In this document: positions 178 to 11,200 of the stretch, one piece after another
Layout: every line of letters starts with the position of its first letter
How positions within the stretch are numbered: the first letter of the stretch is position 1
Virus record (IMG/VR): IMGVR_UViG_3300020378_000027
Span: 1-30,044 of that record
Reading direction: 5' to 3' (one strand)
From: a virus
DNA: 30,044 nucleotides
Notes under the pieces: model-generated
What the model was told of the DNA's origin: nothing
The model's input: only the letters and a program-made list of their open reading frames with translations
The model's database searches: none
Program-made: the position numbers and the translations under genes

Positions 178-348
178 ATGAGAAAAAATTTTTCCGAACT
201 TAAAAGCACCATAGAGGTTGATCCAGTCACTGGAGAATACTACACAAGAATTCCCGAATGTGTTATCAATGACCAGGGATGGTTTGAAGATACAGAATTA
301 GGATGGCAAGTTGAAGGCGATGAAATTATCATTACGGAGATTGGATGA
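178..348 (+). CDS. 56-aa small protein, AbrB-like in appearance
   Basis: A 56-codon reading frame runs from ATG 178 to TGA 346-348. It is preceded by a purine stretch (AGTAGGGAA) at suitable distance. The product is acidic. Its middle reads TRIPECVINDQGW, and it ends with VEGDEIIITEIG. The order IPE, then a GW turn, then WxVEGDxIIIT resembles the swapped-hairpin SpoVT/AbrB pattern of small DNA-binding proteins, but no full match can be claimed. The stop overlaps the next start (ATGA at 345-348), so the two genes are probably translationally coupled. Small proteins of this look are common in T4-like cyanophages. Function is unknown; a transcriptional regulator is one possibility. Confidence 0.7.
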   Translation: MRKNFSELKSTIEVDPVTGEYYTRIPECVINDQGWFEDTELGWQVEGDEIIITEIG

Positions 349-545
349 GTACTAAGGAACTAGCGATCTATCATGTATATCTAAGAGGAGATGTACTTTT
401 CAAGTGTTTAGAGGAAGAAGACTTCAAGGTTATATGGGATAAGATTCATCATGAATTTTTCAAAGAAGAGTTATCATATGAGAGAGTATGTTTAGATGCA
501 TATGGTAATGAGATACCTTGTTTAATTGGGGAGAATAGTTTTTGA
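345..545 (+). CDS. 66-aa conserved-looking hypothetical protein
   Basis: The gene starts at the ATG inside the ATGA overlap with the upstream gene, with a GGAG-like stretch (336-339) as ribosome binding site. The 66-aa product is soluble and acidic, with no signal peptide or membrane segment. It is rich in Glu, Lys and aromatic residues (VIWDKIHHEFFKEEL), which suggests a small helical fold. The reading frame is tightly packed and its stop (543-545) overlaps the TTG start of the following oxygenase gene. I do not recognise the family. The overlaps on both sides indicate a real cistron in a coupled early-type operon. Confidence 0.65.
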   Translation: MSTKELAIYHVYLRGDVLFKCLEEEDFKVIWDKIHHEFFKEELSYERVCLDAYGNEIPCLIGENSF

Positions 546-1081
546 ACTATAGAGTCATTGATAATTTTGCCCCTGAGGAATACTTTACAGAGCTGTATGA
601 TTCTGTAATGGATAATAGTTTTCCATGGTCATTTCAACAGAAAGTAGCAACTGAGGAAGATGATCCAAATGGAGAACAGTTTTATTTCATACATGAAACA
701 TACCATCAATTAACGGAGAAGTCTCTATTTCATCATAGGTTAATACCTATGTTTGAGAATATAGAGATGAAGGCATTGATTAGATGTCGAGTTATCATGT
801 ATATGAATCAAGGTAAGAGAATTATTCATGCACCACATGTTGACACAGGATATAGTCATAAGAGTGGATTATTGTATTTGAATACATGTAATGGATATAC
901 TCGTCTTGCAAATAATGATTGGAAACCAGAGGATGGGCAAGGTGAGGAAGTATTCAGTGAAGGCAATAAGGTTATGAGTGTTCGTAATCGATTATTGTTA
1001 CATGATGGAAGCATACCGCATTGTAGTACGACATGTACAGATCAACGGATGCGTATCCTAATTGCATTCAATTATTTTTAA
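542..1081 (+). CDS. 2OG-Fe(II) oxygenase superfamily protein (179 aa)
   Basis: This predicted Fe(II)/2-oxoglutarate-dependent oxygenase should couple 2-oxoglutarate decarboxylation to hydroxylation of an unknown substrate. The metal triad is visible as H99-x-D101 (APHVDTG), followed by LLYLN on the next strand, and distal H160 (IPHCSTT). R169 or R171 sits where the 2-oxoglutarate carboxylate is usually bound, in RMRILIAFNYF at the C-terminus. The TTG start is chosen because it overlaps the upstream stop (TTGA) and has GGGGAG at 528-533, 8 nt before it; the first internal ATG (residue 23) would remove part of the fold. At 179 aa it has the compact size of phage members. Several such enzymes per genome are typical of T4-like cyanophages, but their targets are not known. 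Confidence 0.82.
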   Translation: MNYRVIDNFAPEEYFTELYDSVMDNSFPWSFQQKVATEEDDPNGEQFYFIHETYHQLTEKSLFHHRLIPMFENIEMKALIRCRVIMYMNQGKRIIHAPHVDTGYSHKSGLLYLNTCNGYTRLANNDWKPEDGQGEEVFSEGNKVMSVRNRLLLHDGSIPHCSTTCTDQRMRILIAFNYF

Positions 1082-1090
1082 AGTCTTCTA

Positions 1091-1119
1091 TTGACTTTTA
1101 GTTGAATGTAGATTAAAAT
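1091..1119 (+). promoter_or_regulatory. Candidate sigma70-type promoter before the glycosyltransferase
   Basis: TTGACT (1091-1096, 5 of 6 to TTGACA) and TAAAAT (1114-1119, 5 of 6 to TATAAT) are separated by exactly 17 nt in the only gap of the first cluster, between the 2OG oxygenase stop (1081) and the ATG at 1145. Transcription would begin near 1126. A small AT-rich hairpin (AAAGTC 1080-1085 with GACTTT 1093-1098) overlaps the -35 box; it is too weak to call a terminator. Confidence 0.55.
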
Positions 1120-1144
1120 ACTCTTGTAATTACAAAACACATTA

Positions 1145-1903
1145 ATGGGAAAAGGATTTACAGTCAAAGCGAAATCCCCTGTTGCAAAACCAAAAGAACC
1201 CGAATGGGATTATGATAAAGCACGGGAGATGATTCGCAATAAAACAGTGGTATTCTGCCTACCAGGGCGCGGAGTATCCTATGCTTTCCTGAAGAGCTTT
1301 GTACAGCTATGCTTTGATCTGGTACAAAGTGGAGCAAGTATCCAAATCTCTCAGGATTATTCATCAATGGTCAACTTTGCTCGATGCAAGTGCCTCGGTG
1401 CTAACGTCCTTCGTGGTCCAGATCAAAAACCATGGGATGGTAAACTTGATTATGATTATCAACTATGGATTGATAGTGATATCGTCTTTAACTCGGAGAA
1501 GTTCTGGCAACTAATCCTCATGGATCAAGATATTGCTGCTGGTTGGTATTGCACTGAAGATGGGCGTACAACCTCGGTTGCACACTGGATGGAAGAAGAT
1601 GATTTCCGTAATAATGGCGGTGTCATGAATCATGAAACGCTTGAAAGTATTGCAAAGCGTAAGAAACCATTCACTGTTGATTACACTGGTTTTGGTTGGG
1701 TACTAATCAAGCATGGTGTATTTGAACACGAAGGTCTACCTTATCCTTGGTTTGCACCTAAGATGCAGGTATTTGAATCTGGTGAAGTTCAAGACATGTG
1801 TGGTGAAGATGTATCATTCTGCTTAGATGCAAAAGAAGCAGGTTTTGAAATCTGGTGTGATCCACGCATTCGAGTTGGTCATGAAAAACAACGAATTATT
1901 TGA
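1145..1903 (+). CDS. GT-A fold glycosyltransferase (GT2-like)
   Basis: This is a predicted nucleotide-sugar-dependent glycosyltransferase of 252 aa. Characteristic positions are the first beta strand TVVFCLPGRGVSY (34-46), the MVNFARCKCLGANVLRG stretch (75-91), the metal-binding D110-S-D112 motif in LWIDSDIVF, the E221-D222 pair in CGEDVSFC and H246 in RVGHEK, which usually completes the metal site in GT-A enzymes. There is no membrane anchor, so it should act in the cytoplasm. The first 25 residues are Lys/Pro-rich and probably flexible. No clear ribosome binding site precedes the ATG, but it follows its own sigma70-type promoter. Possible acceptors are phage structural proteins, phage DNA bases or host surface precursors; the sequence does not say which. 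The 3' end overlaps the next gene by 23 nt. Confidence 0.8.
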   Translation: MGKGFTVKAKSPVAKPKEPEWDYDKAREMIRNKTVVFCLPGRGVSYAFLKSFVQLCFDLVQSGASIQISQDYSSMVNFARCKCLGANVLRGPDQKPWDGKLDYDYQLWIDSDIVFNSEKFWQLILMDQDIAAGWYCTEDGRTTSVAHWMEEDDFRNNGGVMNHETLESIAKRKKPFTVDYTGFGWVLIKHGVFEHEGLPYPWFAPKMQVFESGEVQDMCGEDVSFCLDAKEAGFEIWCDPRIRVGHEKQRII

Positions 1904-2051
1904 TATACTAGATGGGGATAAAGTTCTTTATGAGAACCTAACCCAAGATCAATACTTTGATACGATAGAAGATCTTGCTCAAGACTTCTATCAAAATGGT
2001 GGAAAGAATCCACAAAATTTGAAAACCGTTATTAAAAAAGGTGAACCCTAA
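1881..2051 (+). CDS. 56-aa acidic hypothetical protein
   Basis: The ATG at 1881 lies inside the last codons of the glycosyltransferase, in another frame, and the gene ends at TAA 2049-2051. The frame is open further upstream, but that part lies entirely within the glycosyltransferase and has no better start. The product begins MKNNELFDILDGDKVLYENL and continues with acidic helical sequence (TIEDLAQDFYQNGG) before a basic tail (VIKKGEP). It is probably a two- or three-helix protein. The stop TAA shares its last A with the ATG of the next gene, another sign of coupled translation. Function is unrecognised. Confidence 0.62.
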   Translation: MKNNELFDILDGDKVLYENLTQDQYFDTIEDLAQDFYQNGGKNPQNLKTVIKKGEP

Positions 2052-2197
2052 TGGCACGATCTAAAATTGGACTCGGTGGTGAGGCATTTGTTGAGTCACA
2101 ACCGAAAAAATCTCGTCAAGGCAACGGTAAGCATACCAAATATGCCGCAACTTCTCGTAATAAAGCACGGAAGCGTTATCGTGGACAAGGTAAGTGA
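2051..2197 (+). CDS. 48-aa strongly basic protein
   Basis: A short frame starts at ATG 2051, sharing an A with the previous stop (TAATG), and ends at TGA 2195-2197. AAGGTG (2039-2044) is a good ribosome binding site. The product starts MARSKIGLGGEAFVES and its remaining two thirds are rich in Lys and Arg (QPKKSRQGNGKHTKY, then NKARKRYRGQGK). It is probably unstructured or nucleic-acid binding. To my recollection, proteins with this pattern recur in T4-like cyanophages as very small conserved genes. The other long frame over the same DNA (from ATG 2067) gives less protein-like sequence in this stretch, so I treat this small gene as the real coding frame here. Confidence 0.68.
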   Translation: MARSKIGLGGEAFVESQPKKSRQGNGKHTKYAATSRNKARKRYRGQGK

Positions 2198-2825
2198 ATT
2201 AAAACTTTTAAATCATCGCCATCATGATAACTTCATATCTGAATTCTTATTTGATCCATCAGAACTGAATTTAGATGTAGTTATTGATTACTTTGAAGCA
2301 CTTCATGAGAATGGTGCTGCTGTTGTTCCAAGGAATAATGTAGCAAAAGATGATCAATTGTTTTTATCTGGTGTTATAGGTGGACTTTACGGTCCATCTG
2401 TTTCAGAACTTACGATTAGTGATAATAATATCTTTGCCATTTACCGTCATTGGCAAAATATATCTAAAATTTGCTTTGATTTGTACTTTGATAAGTATGA
2501 AATCTTTAAAACTAAGCAATTAGAACATGTAAATGCCAAAATTCAACGAACAAAACCATCTGGTGGGTTTCATCTTTGGCATCATGATGGTGGATCACCA
2601 CTTTGGCATCGTCAATTAGTAACTTTACTCTATCTAAATGATGATTATGATGCAGGTGAAACAGAATTCTTATATCAATCAGTAAGAATTAAACCACAAG
2701 CAGGTAAATTTATCATATTTCCTGCTCAATGGACTCATATGCACCGTGGAAACCCTCCAATTGGCGGTACAAAATACATTTTAACATCGTGGGTAACTGA
2801 ATTTCCCACTGCAGCGTCAAAATAA
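2181..2825 (+). CDS. 2OG-Fe(II) oxygenase, second copy (about 214 aa)
   Basis: This is a predicted Fe(II)/2-oxoglutarate dioxygenase similar to prolyl-4-hydroxylase-type enzymes. Numbered from the GTG at 2181, the metal motif is H134-H-D136 in LWHHDGG, followed by QLVTLLYLNDDYDAGETEF, the usual H-x-D strand and the G-E-T-E-F lid. The distal histidine is H188 (or H186) in THMHRG, and K198 in GGTKYILTSWV is the likely 2-oxoglutarate ligand. The start is uncertain. The frame is open back to ATG 2067, but that region is better explained by the 48-aa gene, so GTG 2181, overlapping it by 17 nt, is preferred. It is not closely similar to the 179-aa oxygenase upstream, so the two are not recent duplicates. 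A terminator follows directly. Confidence 0.8.
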   Translation: MDKVSELKLLNHRHHDNFISEFLFDPSELNLDVVIDYFEALHENGAAVVPRNNVAKDDQLFLSGVIGGLYGPSVSELTISDNNIFAIYRHWQNISKICFDLYFDKYEIFKTKQLEHVNAKIQRTKPSGGFHLWHHDGGSPLWHRQLVTLLYLNDDYDAGETEFLYQSVRIKPQAGKFIIFPAQWTHMHRGNPPIGGTKYILTSWVTEFPTAASK

Positions 2826-2907: not shown

Positions 2908-3309
2908 ATGGCAATAAAGCGCACATCTCAGTCGTTTAAAGACATTAGTTTCTCTTTTGTACCACATCCTGTTACAAAAGATCTACCTGTCTTGGTAAAT
3001 GAACGCGCAATTACAAGAGCAGTACGGAATTTAGTTGAAACAATTCCAACAGAAAGGTTTTTTAACTCTGATTTAGGTACTGATATACGCGGAAGTCTAT
3101 TTGCAAACTACACTCCAAGTCTTCCACGCATTATTGAGAACCAAATTAATGAAACTGTCAATCGTTATGAACCTAGAGTCGCAAACTTAAGGGTTAATCT
3201 TGATTCATATATTGATCAAAATGCATTTAATGTGACTGTAACCTTTGATATTGTTGGACTTGATGCTCCAACTCAAGAATTTACCTTCCTCTTAGAGCCT
3301 ACCAGATAA
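2908..3309 (+). CDS. 25: Baseplate wedge subunit gp25
   Basis: This is the small gpW/gp25-family wedge protein that sits at the baseplate/sheath junction and primes sheath polymerisation. The length, 133 aa, is close to T4 gp25 (132 aa). Visible family features are the N-terminal NERAITRAVRNLVETIPTER stretch (31-50), where GER/TER-type residues precede the FFNSDLGTDIRG turn, and the hallmark E88-P89-R90 motif (YEPRVANLRV) before the last beta hairpin. It is the first gene behind the late promoter at 2868 and is followed after 4 nt by gene 6, so the two are cotranscribed. No Shine-Dalgarno sequence is seen before the ATG. Confidence 0.93.
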   Translation: MAIKRTSQSFKDISFSFVPHPVTKDLPVLVNERAITRAVRNLVETIPTERFFNSDLGTDIRGSLFANYTPSLPRIIENQINETVNRYEPRVANLRVNLDSYIDQNAFNVTVTFDIVGLDAPTQEFTFLLEPTR

Positions 3310-3313
3310 TAAT

Positions 3314-5281
3314 ATGCCATTTACACAGTACACAAGTTTAGATTTTGAGGAAATAAAAGCCCAGATACGGGATTTTCTTCGTGCAAACAGCAATTTTACT
3401 GATTTTGACTTTGAAGGGTCCAACTTTTCGGTTCTAATTGACACTTTAGCGTACAATACTTACATTAATGCCTTTAATGCGAACCTAGTTGCTAATGAAT
3501 CGTTCTTAGATTCTGCTTCAATTCGTGAAAATGTGGTTTCATTAGCACGAAACATTGGTTATGTACCTACATCAAGGACTGCAGCACATGCTGAAGTGCA
3601 TTTTGAGGTTGAAACAGACACTTCTGAACCTATCATCTACTTGAATCCAGGTTTAGTCACTGTTGGAGTGTCTGATGGCAGTACTTTTACCTTCTCAACC
3701 ACTGAAGAATATCATGCTTCAGTAAAAGTTGTTGGAAAAAACACTGATGGTACTGATAAAAAGGTTGCAACCTTTGGAAGTGTTGAAAATCCAATTCAAA
3801 TTCATCAAGGAACCTTCCTACAAAGCAGATTTAGGGCAAACAATGGGAAAGATCAACGCTTTATACTTTCTAACCCCAATATTGACACCTCAACCATTAA
3901 AGTTTTTGTTTCTACTGAAGCAGGAGTGTTGGGAAGAGAATGGCAAATGGTTGACAACATCTTAAATATTGAAAAAACCTCCGAAATCTTCTTTATTCAA
4001 GAAATTGGTGATGAAAATTTTGAAATTCTCTTCGGTGATGGTATTTTTGGCAAAAAATTAGAGAATGGAAGCATCATTACAGTCAGATATATCGTAACTG
4101 ACGGTAAAGACGGCAATGGAGCAAGGGAATTTAGTTTCCAAGGTTCATTTAGTGATAAACCCCAGAGTCAAGTGGGTGGTAAAGTTGTTTTACCTGCTGC
4201 TGGAGTGGTTGTTAACACCGTCAATGGCGCTAGAAATGGCGCTGAGATAGAGGATGTACGCTCTATCAAGTACTTTGCCCCTAGACTGTACTCTTCGCAG
4301 TACAGAGCGGTTACAGGGCGTGACTATGAGGCGATTATTCAGTCAATCTTCCCTCAAACTGAGTCTGTTGCTGTAATTGGTGGTGAAGAATTAAGTCCAC
4401 CACAGTTTGGTAAGGTGCAAATCAGCATCAAACCAAAAAATGGTACTTATGTTTCTGATTTTGATAAGCAACAAATCAAAAACAAGTTAAAAAATTATGC
4501 AATTGCTGGAATTAACTCAGAAATTGTAGATCTTAAGGTTCTTTATGTTGAACTTGATTCAACGATCTACTATGATACCTCAAAAGTATCAAATCCTGAT
4601 CAGTTAAGTGCAAGTATTACAGATACCTTATCAACTTATTCAAAAACTGTAGACATCAATAAGTTTGGTGGAAGATTCAAGTACAGTAAGATCCTACAAT
4701 TGATCGATAGAGTTGATAATGCAATTACTTCAAACATTACTAAGGTCAAGATCAGAAGAGATCTAAAGGCATTGAAGAATCAGTTTGCACAGTATGAACT
4801 ATGCTTCGGTAATAAATTCCACATCAACCCCGAAGGATATAATATCAAGAGTACTGGATTCACTGTAGGAGGTTCTTCTGATTTGGTATTCTTAACTGAT
4901 GTTCCCAATAAGACTGCTGATGGTAAATTAGATGGCAGTAATAAGGGTATTATCAGTGCGGTTTCTCGTAATGAAAAGGATGAACTAAAAGTTATTGTGA
5001 AATCTGTAGGAACTGTTGACTACCACAAGGGTGAAATATTACTGAATACTATCAATATCACCTCAACTGTTGCAGATAATGATCTTATTGAGATCCAGGC
5101 GTTCCCAGAATCTAATGATGTTATTGGATTGAAGGATTTGTACATCACATTTGATGTTTCAAATTCTAGAATAAATATGGTTAAAGATGTAATTGCTTCT
5201 GGAGAAGATGTTTCTGGCGTCATATTCTCAAGAGACTATTACACATCAAGCTACTCTAACGGAGAACTAGAGAGGAAATAA
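3314..5281 (+). CDS. 6: Baseplate wedge subunit gp6
   Basis: In T4, gp6 forms the continuous inner ring of the baseplate and links the wedges. This product has 655 aa, essentially the T4 length (660). The N-terminus carries the diagnostic gp6 signature: NFSVLIDTLAYNTYINAFNA (residues 35-54), then NESFLDSASIRENVVSLA and IGYVP. A beta-rich central region includes FEILFGDGIFGKKLENG, and it is followed by a baseplate-J-like segment (YFAPRLYSSQYRAVTGRDYE, about 327-346). The C-terminal part is less conserved and beta-rich. Its stop TAA directly abuts the ATG of the giant gp7-like gene, for which the GAGAGGAAA at its 3' end serves as ribosome binding site. Confidence 0.93.
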   Translation: MPFTQYTSLDFEEIKAQIRDFLRANSNFTDFDFEGSNFSVLIDTLAYNTYINAFNANLVANESFLDSASIRENVVSLARNIGYVPTSRTAAHAEVHFEVETDTSEPIIYLNPGLVTVGVSDGSTFTFSTTEEYHASVKVVGKNTDGTDKKVATFGSVENPIQIHQGTFLQSRFRANNGKDQRFILSNPNIDTSTIKVFVSTEAGVLGREWQMVDNILNIEKTSEIFFIQEIGDENFEILFGDGIFGKKLENGSIITVRYIVTDGKDGNGAREFSFQGSFSDKPQSQVGGKVVLPAAGVVVNTVNGARNGAEIEDVRSIKYFAPRLYSSQYRAVTGRDYEAIIQSIFPQTESVAVIGGEELSPPQFGKVQISIKPKNGTYVSDFDKQQIKNKLKNYAIAGINSEIVDLKVLYVELDSTIYYDTSKVSNPDQLSASITDTLSTYSKTVDINKFGGRFKYSKILQLIDRVDNAITSNITKVKIRRDLKALKNQFAQYELCFGNKFHINPEGYNIKSTGFTVGGSSDLVFLTDVPNKTADGKLDGSNKGIISAVSRNEKDELKVIVKSVGTVDYHKGEILLNTINITSTVADNDLIEIQAFPESNDVIGLKDLYITFDVSNSRINMVKDVIASGEDVSGVIFSRDYYTSSYSNGELERK

Positions 5282-8200: not shown

Positions 8201-11200
8201 CTCGCTTATGACACCATTCATTCCAAAAATCATGGATTCGGTCATGGTGATTTGGTAGAATATTCGATTAGTAATACTGGCACTACCAATAATTCTTCGT
8301 CAGTATACTATACAATCGGTCTTGAAAGTTGGACTAGCACACACAATGCACCAATATTGTTCACCCAGGCATTAAATGATGGAACAGGTGGTGGAAATCA
8401 AGCAGTGTGGTTACAAGATTACTATGATGATATTGTCGCAAATGGTGCTAATGCTACAGCAACTATTAAAACAGTTGATGCTGCAGGACATGCAGAATTT
8501 GCACAGCAAACTGCAGAGGGTGCCATACTTCAATCAGAAATAAGAAGCTTTATTGGTTCAAGTAATCCATCTGGTCCTATTGCAAACGCACAGTTCCCTA
8601 TCGTCCCAGCAGATGGTGAAACTCATACCATTGATGGTACATCTTATCCAGTTATGGGTAAATTGTATGTACCCACAGGTGTCGCAGCAAGTTCTCTTGA
8701 TGTTGTAGTTGTATTCCATGGCACAGTCGGATCTGGAAGCATTGCAGACGCAGCACAAACTGCACTTGATACTTTCCTGAATACAACCACTCTTAATGTA
8801 AGAGATAAGATCATCTTCGCTGCTGCATATCCTCAAGACCATATTTCTAGTTCACTCCAGTTTAATTTACCTGGTGTTGGTACAGAGACACCAACATTCC
8901 TAATGGGTGATAACCTTCCTTATGCAAGAGCGGCAGTTGGTTGGGTTCAAAATTCTTTGAATGCTTATATTGCATCCCAAGGTGGCACTAAAACTATCAA
9001 CAATGTTTATCTGTTCGGTCACTCTCAAGGTGGTAAATTAGTCGCTAAGATTAACACTTTAGATACTGGAATTGCTGGTGTTATTTCAAATGCTCCTGGT
9101 CCTATTCAGTTTGACCAAACTTGCTCGACAGCAACTAACAACTATACCTGTGACAAAGTTGCTGCAATTCATGGTGCTCCTGGTGGTATTGGTGGATTAA
9201 ATCTTAATAATCAATACTATGTAATTAAGATTGATGACGATTCATTCCGCTTAGCAGATGCTGGAACTACACAAAATATTGATAATTTTAAGAGAAATAA
9301 TTATATAAACTTTACATCTCAAGGAACCGAACAGCATACATTTGCATATCCAGAAATTAAAGTAGAAGCAGAAGTTTCATTTAGTTCGACTGTTTCTGGT
9401 ACTCTTAATTTTACTCCTGTTGTTACTGGTAAAATTGCGGATGTAAAACTATCCAACTCTGGAACAAAATATGGTTCTACAATTCTTAACCACACCAAAA
9501 CTCCATCAGTATCTGTTGAAACTGGTGATGGTGGTGTTGTACGACTTATCATTGTCGATGGTAGAATTGATCAAGCTCAAGTTTTAAACAAAGGAAGAAA
9601 TTATTTCTCAGTTCCAGATATCGTAGTTACTTCAACCGATGGTAAAACTGGAAATGGTGCGATTCTAAGAGCAGTAATAAATGATCTGCATCAATTGGAG
9701 GGCGTTAGAGTCATCAATCCTGGTATTGGATATGTTGATGCCCTTACAGAGGCAACTGTCGTATCTAGAGGTAAGAATTGTGTTCTTAATCCTAGAATCA
9801 GAAAACTTACTGTTGATTCTAGAATCAAAAATGGAAATTATGATGTAAGTTCTGCAGAAGACGGTCTAGCGTTAAGATCTATTGGTTATACCCCAACTAT
9901 AGCAGATAGTTTTGATGATGTTGAATCAAGACATTCACCAATCATTGGATGGGCATACGATGGCAACCCAATTTATGGTCCTTTCGGATTTACCAATCCA
10001 TCTGAGTTAGGTCCTAATGTAAAAATACTAAGCTCAGGATACTCACTAGATGCTTCTAATGTTGTTGATCGTCCTTCTACCAATGAATTTGCGGAAGGTT
10101 ATTTTGTTGATGATTGGTCTTTTACTGGAAATGGCGATCTTGATATTCATAATGGCAGATTCTGCAAAACTAATGAATTCCCTAACGGAGTTTATGCATA
10201 CTTTGCTTCCGTAACTAGAAGTACACAATCTAATGTGCTTGAACCTTCTTTCCCATACTATATCGGAAAGACTTACAGATCACCATATATCAGCGATAAT
10301 TCTTCATTGAATCAGAAGTTTGATTTTAATAACTCTAAGTTGTCGAGAAATACTTTCCCATATAAGGTAGGTGATCAAAATGCTGATAATGACTTTATTA
10401 TTGAATCAAATGAAACCCTAAGACAATTATCAACTATTGAAGCAATTACTGTTGGTGAGATTGATGATATTGTTGTATTAGATGGTGGTTCTTCTTATAA
10501 AGTTGGTGATGTAACCAGTTTTGATGATACTAATACCAATGGAACAGGTCTCCGTGCTCAAGTTAAATCATTAGTTGGTTTTGCAGTAACTGCACTTGAG
10601 ACTGATCTTGATAGATATGAGAATGCAGTATTTAAGTGGATTGATGATCAAACTGTTGAAGCAACCTATCACCCATACTATGATTTCTTAGATGAAACTA
10701 CCGTTAATATTTCTGGTTTAAACAAAACAGTAGTTCACCTGCAAGATACTTTTACGGTTGGTGTAAAGACTGAAACTATTGGTCTTGCAAAATCAATGAC
10801 TGCTAATCCAGTAGTTACTGGAAGAGTTGAGGACATATATGTTGATAGGATTCCATCTACTGTTTCTGTAGGATCTACAATTAAGATCAATGATGATGAG
10901 TTAATCAGTGTTCTTAACATTTACCCAATTGGATCTATACTAAGAGTTAAGAGATTTGGTGTTGGTATTGCCCACACTTATGGATCCAAATTAGATCCAT
11001 TAGCAAGAACTATTAGTATTCCAGTTCAGACTAAGAAATTCGAGTCTTCTATACAAGATAAGATATTCTTTAATGCACATCAATCTGTTGGTGTTGGAAC
11101 CACTGCTGGTGGTGGTATTAGTGTTGAATATGTTGTTGGTGAGAGTAAATCTATCGTACCTATTCCTACAAGGCAGATTTATCTACCAAATCATCCATTC

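Follow-up and report, generated by a model that had tools for sequence, protein, structure and literature searches.

Cyanophage genomes carry many genes resembling 2-oxoglutarate (2OG)- and Fe(II)-dependent oxygenases. Passages of a comparative study of cyanophages report numerous 2OG oxygenases in 14 of 16 genomes and NtcA sites in all of them, and locate a hot-spot at the "small genes between gp46 and gp25" (Sullivan et al. 2010, PMC3037559). A passage of the report on phage S-SCSM1 assigns 24 oxygenases to that phage and describes the functions of cyanophage 2OG oxygenases as not specifically investigated (PMC9602691), and part of a 2026 report describes an EGLN-like fold for these enzymes (PMC12774648). 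In Prochlorococcus phage P-SSM2 (Kyanoviridae, Salacisavirus), where our profile scan found 24 oxygenase-like open reading frames (ORFs) spread over the genome, genes PSSM2_102 to PSSM2_110 place oxygenases and a glycosyltransferase immediately upstream of the baseplate genes gp25, gp6 and gp7. Here we analyze the corresponding locus in a 30,044-base virus record (IMGVR_UViG_3300020378_000027; hereafter the window) from a T4-like, P-SSM2-like cyanomyovirus. The left end of the window shares 74% DNA identity with P-SSM2 and keeps its gene order, with the oxygenase oxy1 (PSSM2_104), the glycosyltransferase GT (PSSM2_106), the tiny gene s3252 (PSSM2_107) and the oxygenase oxy2 (PSSM2_108) preceding gp25, gp6 and gp7. 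P-SSM2 differs in that oxy1 and GT are separated by a third oxygenase, PSSM2_105, and the window differs in an extra insert of ~300 aa in gp7. An initial annotation of the window had described two oxygenases bracketing GT and two tiny genes, s3252 and s516, directly before the baseplate genes; every ORF was found in place, followed by gp25, gp6 and a 5023-aa gp7, and the HxD motifs fall exactly at residues 99/101 of oxy1 and 134/136 of oxy2 (numbered from GTG 2181). We consider it probable that this gp25-upstream hot-spot combines a GT pair with interchangeable protein hydroxylases of the prolyl 4-hydroxylase (P4H) or PHD type, and does not encode one fixed pathway.

Oxygenases and a glycosyltransferase pair upstream of gp25

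The initial annotation raised the possibility that the trio of oxy1, GT and oxy2 forms a cluster in which hydroxylation is followed by glycosylation. Across related phages, the trio persists as a unit only in a P-SSM2-like clade, and there with changing oxygenase sets. Scans with the single oxy1 and oxy2 proteins returned one and two loci, respectively, and family alignments were therefore used; loci retrieved with these alignments are selected for oxygenases and were excluded from the 2×2 test. Once loci were required to extend at least 2.5 kb upstream of gp25, 53 of 66 gp25-anchored loci remained from the GT scan, 41 of 79 from a scan for P-SSM4-like loci and 29 of 76 from a scan for S-CAM4-like loci, and omitting locus L015, in which GT and gp25 are more than 4 kb apart, gave 52 GT loci. 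All contigs are fragments, and near-identical ones were removed only for the tree described below, on the basis of identical gp6 proteins. An oxygenase precedes gp25 in 10 of the 52 loci with GT within 4 kb, the other 42 having none nearby, compared with 20 of 70 loci from the gp6-anchored scans (14/41 P-SSM4-like and 6/29 S-CAM4-like; p=0.29), in none of which was GT found. The isolates P-SSM4 and S-CAM4, which lack GT, themselves have an oxygenase placed two or three genes ahead of gp25. Together, these data indicate that the oxygenases go with the gp25 neighborhood and not with GT, and a dedicated hydroxylation–glycosylation cassette at gp25 is rejected by this distribution and by the changing oxygenase sets.

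We placed 79 GT loci on a tree of gp6 proteins built with a quick method, in which the P-SSM2-like clade comprises 30 rows. An oxygenase adjoins GT in 29 of these 30 rows, many of which came from the oxygenase scans, and in 2 of the 49 rows outside the clade; among clade rows retrieved by the GT scan alone, 12 of 13 (counted by eye) have at least one oxygenase. The tree shows at least 10 changes of the oxygenase set. The kinds found near GT are OXY1, OXY2, OX105, OX13, OX18, OX19 and an OX8/OX9 pair, with up to four together, and the same GT can be accompanied by other families altogether, such as OX19 with OX18 in locus L009 and OX8 with OX9 in L043. All scanned representatives are oxygenase-like by Pfam or PHROG profiles (OX18, OX8 and OXY1 by PHROG alone; OX9 by DUF6445 plus a weak match to a PHROG family). 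The OX8/OX9 pair lies between the end of GT and s516 in L032, L037 and L043, and since the gp6 proteins of these three loci are far apart on the tree, this distribution suggests block transfer. In S-SCSM1 (L410:3512-4678), a tryptophan halogenase fills the slot between the small partner gene of GT and gp25. The proposal of the initial annotation thus holds for its ingredients, protein-hydroxylase-type oxygenases and a glycosyltransferase that occur together in one clade, and is not supported as a fixed cassette.

The element that does remain constant is GT together with s3252, an overlapping gene of ~55 aa. When gp25-anchored loci extending at least 2.5 kb upstream are counted, both genes are present in 78 and neither in 72, the lone apparent exception being L015, where GT sits more than 4 kb away. 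s3252 lies within 800 nt of GT in 110 of 111 GT loci and is its constant, inseparable partner, and s516 also occurs in phages without GT. GT itself matches phrog_1574, a family of "unknown function" (E=2.8e-121), and more weakly a PHROG family named glycosyltransferase (E=1.2e-4). No Pfam profile matches the window GT, a profile search of the Protein Data Bank (PDB) with GT gave nothing meaningful, and its AlphaFold model is unusable (predicted local distance difference test score, pLDDT, 43). The DxD motif D110-S-D112 and the motif G220-E-D222 are invariant in 42 sequences, a relative with 37% identity (L243) matches PF00535 at 24.0 bits, just above the cut-off of 23.3, and L244, which belongs to phrog_1574, has a sub-threshold match to Anp1. 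Because of these motifs, the weak glycosyltransferase match and the Pfam matches of its relatives, GT is likely a GT-A enzyme.

A search of 50,697 phage records retrieved GT from 103 of them. GT is strongly conserved, the window protein being 91% identical to PSSM2_106. Over 60 loci, which were chosen by GT similarity, the median identity is 86.9% for GT, 57.9% for gp25 and 60.4% for gp6, with GT exceeding gp6 in 60 of 60; in the isolates S-SKS1 and Sf-CH5, GT is likewise 87 and 84% identical compared with 55–61% for its baseplate neighbors. In S-SKS1 (L003:4416-5114) the annotated GT is start-shortened and an additional, overlapping ORF matches GT as well, which suggests a frameshift or an error in sequencing. 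GT also occurs in ten contigs (L412-L421) of metagenome-assembled genomes assigned to Flavobacteriales, Euryarchaeota, Woesearchaeota and others. A cellular origin of GT was considered and rejected, as these ten contigs all belong to metagenome-assembled genomes of unrelated phyla and are most likely phage contigs binned along with them.

The alternative closest to the original proposal, which we regard as unlikely, is that oxy1, oxy2 or both hydroxylate a virion protein and that GT adds a sugar to the new hydroxyl, as occurs on collagen lysine. The tight packing of the trio, the similarity of oxy2 to LH3, one of its nearest solved relatives, and the persistence in the P-SSM2-like clade of varying oxygenase sets around the same GT are consistent with such a cascade, as are the tail-fiber loci of phages ACG-2014f and S-CAM7, where a P4H-type oxygenase located near collagen-like genes has a glycosyltransferase no more than two genes away. 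However, GT is 85–91% identical in phages with and without oxygenases, so that its acceptor seems independent of them, most GT loci have no oxygenase nearby, and oxygenases are as common at gp25 without GT. Several observations weigh on the other side, against a hot-spot of independent modules. Within the P-SSM2-like clade an oxygenase nearly always adjoins GT, also in the rows unbiased by oxygenase scans; the three oxygenases within 1.5 kb of the P-SSM2 GT form a local maximum reached at 1.2% of positions, with other P-SSM2 stretches denser in oxygenases at radii of 3 and 5 kb; and the home-made profiles behind the comparison of loci with and without GT may have missed distant oxygenases in both classes. 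The clade persistence and local density would fit a functional oxygenase–GT link in the P-SSM2-like clade.

The two oxygenases and the endonuclease V name

oxy1 belongs to a family with a misleading name. It matches phrog_274, named "DNA endonuclease V" (E=8.4e-43), and is 40% identical to its P-SSM2 orthologue PSSM2_104, which is called denV; the gene denV is listed in a passage on the genes of 13 cyanophage genomes (Sullivan et al. 2010, PMC3037559). No Pfam oxygenase profile matches oxy1 and a PDB profile search with it returned nothing meaningful. Residues H99, D101, H160 and R171 are nevertheless invariant across an alignment of 49 relatives, and the predicted structure of oxy1 (pLDDT 93.1) has a prolyl-hydroxylase fold that superposes on a Burkholderia 2OG oxygenase (Z-score 16.1, 2.4 Å over 156 residues), PHD2 (Z-scores 14–16) and P. 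putida P4H (Z-score 14.5). This predicted double-stranded beta-helix with an HxD...H...R signature places oxy1 among the 2OG-Fe(II) oxygenases. Two other genes called denV, PSSM4_077 and PSSM2_163, match PF13640 above the cut-off (E=2.3e-7 and 7.3e-6), and the Pfam endonuclease V profile matches neither oxy1 nor PSSM2_104 at E up to 1. The missing Pfam match and the prolyl-hydroxylase fold of the model rule out oxy1 as a T4-type endonuclease V. Because of the invariant residues, the modeled fold and the PF13640 matches of other denV genes, the "DNA endonuclease V" name of phrog_274 and denV is wrong as judged from these predictions, the examined members being oxygenase-like. The PHROG names phrog_274 "DNA endonuclease V", phrog_2297 "DNA endonuclease", phrog_3531 "ferrochelatase" and phrog_1644 "minor coat protein" all match oxygenase-like proteins, and among these four at least phrog_274 is misnamed. 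An oxygenase in place of the "DNA endonuclease V" of many cyanophages changes the count of their repair functions.

oxy2, which is 55% identical to PSSM2_108, matches PF13640 directly (E=6.4e-12, 46.7 bits against a cut-off of 27). Its iron ligands H134, D136 and H188 are invariant in the family alignment, which identifies it as a member of the 2OG-Fe(II) superfamily. A profile of six oxy2 relatives searched against solved structures retrieved prolyl 4-hydroxylases first (6iuq, E=1e-10; 3itq and 5hv0, E=1.6e-6) and LH3 after them (E=7e-5), and in the HMMER alignment H188 and K198 of oxy2 align with the corresponding P4H residues, a histidine and a lysine, in 3itq and 5hv0. By sequence, oxy2 is thus prolyl-4-hydroxylase-like, with a catalytic domain that contains the distal histidine and the lysine for 2OG.

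These features suggest how the locus would work. Its fixed part would be the GT-A-like glycosyltransferase, made together with the tiny overlapping s3252, plus s516, and in this clade the slots before GT and between s516 and gp25 would be filled by interchangeable 2OG-Fe(II) protein hydroxylases. oxy1, with its predicted PHD/P4H-like fold, and oxy2, with a P4H-like domain and a putative 2OG-binding lysine ten residues past the distal histidine, each most likely hydroxylate a phage or host protein with Fe(II), O2 and 2OG, the target residue probably being a proline. GT would act on an acceptor of its own, without need of the neighboring oxygenases.

Collagen-like tail fibers and P4H-type oxygenases

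Among conceivable substrates of P4H-type enzymes in this lineage, the phage's own collagen-like tail fibers would be the most attractive. No Gly-X-Y array occurs in any of the six frames of the window, which dismisses a collagen-like substrate encoded there, and the proline content of its gp25, gp6, gp7, gp8 and a 2500-aa protein is 2.6–6.8%. The P-SSM2 tail-fiber genes, in contrast, contain many collagen-like Gly-X-Y arrays: a strict (GPX)4 DNA pattern matches P-SSM2 50 times in the forward direction and none of 16 other cyanophage records. These genes lie next to a P4H-type oxygenase (L238:19000-28500), PSSM2_031, which is annotated piuC/ferrochelatase and has as its nearest solved relatives B. 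anthracis-type P4H enzymes ("procollagen-proline dioxygenase", E=8e-11).

We found that this neighborhood recurs in viral contigs. At least 10 GXY triplets are present in 44 of 78 loci with PSSM2_031 relatives, compared with 1 of 417 control loci. Of the 62 loci in which at least 2.5 kb upstream of the P4H is available, 38 contain 5 or more triplets there, including 14 of 14 for the closest relatives, and the same density is seen in 3 of 3000 random windows. A repeated order comprises the collagen-like fiber, a tail-assembly chaperone (PF16778), the P4H and a large tail fiber. Anchored on the large tail fiber, the 6 kb upstream contains at least 10 triplets in 21 of 40 loci with the P4H and 0 of 14 without it (p=3.0e-4), a comparison of loci that are not independent, in which the P4H loci were found through their P4H, collagen without P4H was sought just in the 14 controls, and two of these controls (S-SCSM1 and S-SSM7) have distant P4H-profile matches of 36 and 46 bits. 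The other 19 of the 40 loci with P4H have no such arrays.

Two phages that also carry the gp25 GT have a glycosyltransferase in this tail-fiber locus. In ACG-2014f (L508:7106-12594), a collagen triple helix protein (PF01391, E=3.4e-41) and, beyond two hypothetical genes, a PF00534 glycosyltransferase precede the P4H, which a small gene separates from a tail fiber; in S-CAM7 (L509), two collagen-like proteins, identified by triplet count, precede a PF00534 glycosyltransferase, a second weak one and then the P4H. Two observations at tail-fiber loci weigh against the lysine cascade discussed above: the glycosyltransferases there are of a family other than GT, and the collagen-like triplets, mostly GPP, GPT and GPA in P-SSM2-like loci, contain no lysine at X or Y in the nine loci examined. 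An LH3-like lysyl hydroxylation of collagen was rejected on the same lack of lysine and because the hydroxylase and GT genes are not fused.

oxy2 is connected to the tail-fiber enzyme by similarity and by co-occurrence. A widened oxy2 profile finds PSSM2_031 at E=9.5e-20, and at the sequence level oxy2 is a relative of the collagen-side P4H. The window fragment ends before the tail-fiber genes, and the link between oxy2 and collagen is drawn from P-SSM2, which has both, and from the single-cell virus AG-345-F15, where oxy2 and collagen-like fibers come from two contigs and GT is accompanied by oxy2 but not by oxy1. Prolyl hydroxylation of collagen-like tail fibers by phages is plausible from this gene arrangement, and hydroxylation chemistry may thus serve the virion, as the initial annotation envisaged, at another locus with collagen-like fibers as the candidate substrate. 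More tentatively, we propose that cyanophage P4H-type oxygenases could hydroxylate prolines of collagen-like (Gly-Pro-X) fibers and so stabilize or tune the triple helix, that in some lineages a neighboring glycosyltransferase decorates it, and that oxy2 of the window might be a second, baseplate-side member of this hydroxylase group and the P-SSM2-like trio a rotating kit of virion-protein enzymes; this is a possibility we would not yet favor. The fixed place of one oxygenase subfamily beside collagen-like fiber genes supplies a concrete candidate protein substrate. If the proposal is true, phages would make hydroxylated collagen, a modification associated mainly with animals, some bacteria and giant viruses. 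Literature searches confined to open-license papers listed none that, judged by title and the start of the abstract, connects collagen-like fibers of cyanophages with a phage P4H.

Gene layout, other candidate substrates and known relatives

The features of the locus are collected in Table 1. The ORF list begins oxy2 at TTG 2067, overlapping the 48-aa gene s516, and we infer that GTG 2181 is the more likely start. Further downstream, positions 8279-9190 encode the ~300-aa insert of gp7 (residues about 1000-1302), which is absent from P-SSM2 gp7 and 63.5% identical to part of an S-SCSM1 tail fiber protein; it holds a GHSQGG motif and weak alpha/beta-hydrolase matches.

Table 1. Features at the left end of the window and the basis of their assignment
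Feature	Position	Strand	Basis or remark
Small ORF, phrog_661	178..348	+	ORF and PHROG match; upstream of GT in most loci
Small ORF, phrog_2626	345..545	+	ORF and PHROG match
oxy1, 2OG-Fe(II) oxygenase, phrog_274 family, 179 aa	542..1081	+	H99, D101, H160, R171; predicted fold
GT, GT-A-like glycosyltransferase (likely), phrog_1574, 252 aa	1145..1903	+	D110-S-D112, G220-E-D222
s3252, about 55-aa protein, phrog_3252, overlaps GT end	about 1881..2051	+	ORF and PHROG match
s516, 48-aa basic protein, phrog_516	2051..2197	+	ORF and PHROG match; also before gp25 in GT-less phages
oxy2, prolyl-4-hydroxylase-like 2OG-Fe(II) oxygenase	2181..2825	+	PF13640; H134, D136, H188, K198 conserved
gp25 baseplate wedge subunit	2908..3309	+	PF04965
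gp6 baseplate wedge subunit	3314..5281	+	Neighbor and anchor
gp7 baseplate protein, 5023 aa	5282..20353	+	Synteny with P-SSM2 gp7

Sullivan et al. (2010) proposed that cyanophage oxygenases act on the 2OG pool or host nitrogen metabolism, which would leave oxy1 and oxy2 with no specific macromolecule as substrate. The abundance of oxygenases across cyanophages and the universal NtcA sites reported in the cited passages (PMC3037559), together with the 24 oxygenases each of S-SCSM1 (PMC9602691) and P-SSM2, agree with this idea. We doubt that it applies here, as a single enzyme would presumably suffice to drain 2OG, and the genomes instead hold many divergent families with protein-hydroxylase-type folds, one of them a P4H fixed beside collagen-like genes, which indicates specific protein targets. 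That the oxygenases and GT together modify host-envelope sugars or lipids is quite improbable: the P-SSM2 oxygenase PSSM2_262 does lie inside a glycosyltransferase/epimerase island, but the closest matches of oxy1 and oxy2 are peptide hydroxylases and Pfam and PHROG scans recognized no sugar-nucleotide gene in the window. DNA modification, the second outcome offered by the initial annotation, can be set aside as exceedingly improbable: the succession of hydroxymethyl base formation and glucosylation is known in T-even phages and TET-encoding phages, but the Tet_JBP profile matches neither oxy1 nor oxy2 at E up to 1, their nearest structures are protein hydroxylases, and relatives of the window GT match GT2/Anp1, unlike the DNA glucosyltransferases of T4, which are GT-B enzymes.

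Comparison with characterized enzymes supports the preferred reading of oxy1 and oxy2 as protein hydroxylases. PHD2/EGLN1 and P. putida P4H share the fold of the oxy1 model at Z-scores of 14–16 over about 150 residues, with sequence identity of just about 16–22%. The B. anthracis-type prolyl 4-hydroxylases (3itq/5hv0, and also 6iuq) share the distal histidine and lysine of oxy2, with low identity and a match limited to the catalytic domain. The hydroxylase domain of LH3 also resembles oxy2, and LH3 follows a similar logic of hydroxylase plus glycosyltransferase, but as a single protein acting on lysine, whereas the window encodes hydroxylase and GT in separate genes. Among phages, the tail-fiber locus of ACG-2014f and S-CAM7 resembles the window trio in placing a glycosyltransferase and a P4H-type oxygenase a few genes apart, there with a collagen-like protein as well, and differs in the PF00534 family of its glycosyltransferase and in its genome location.

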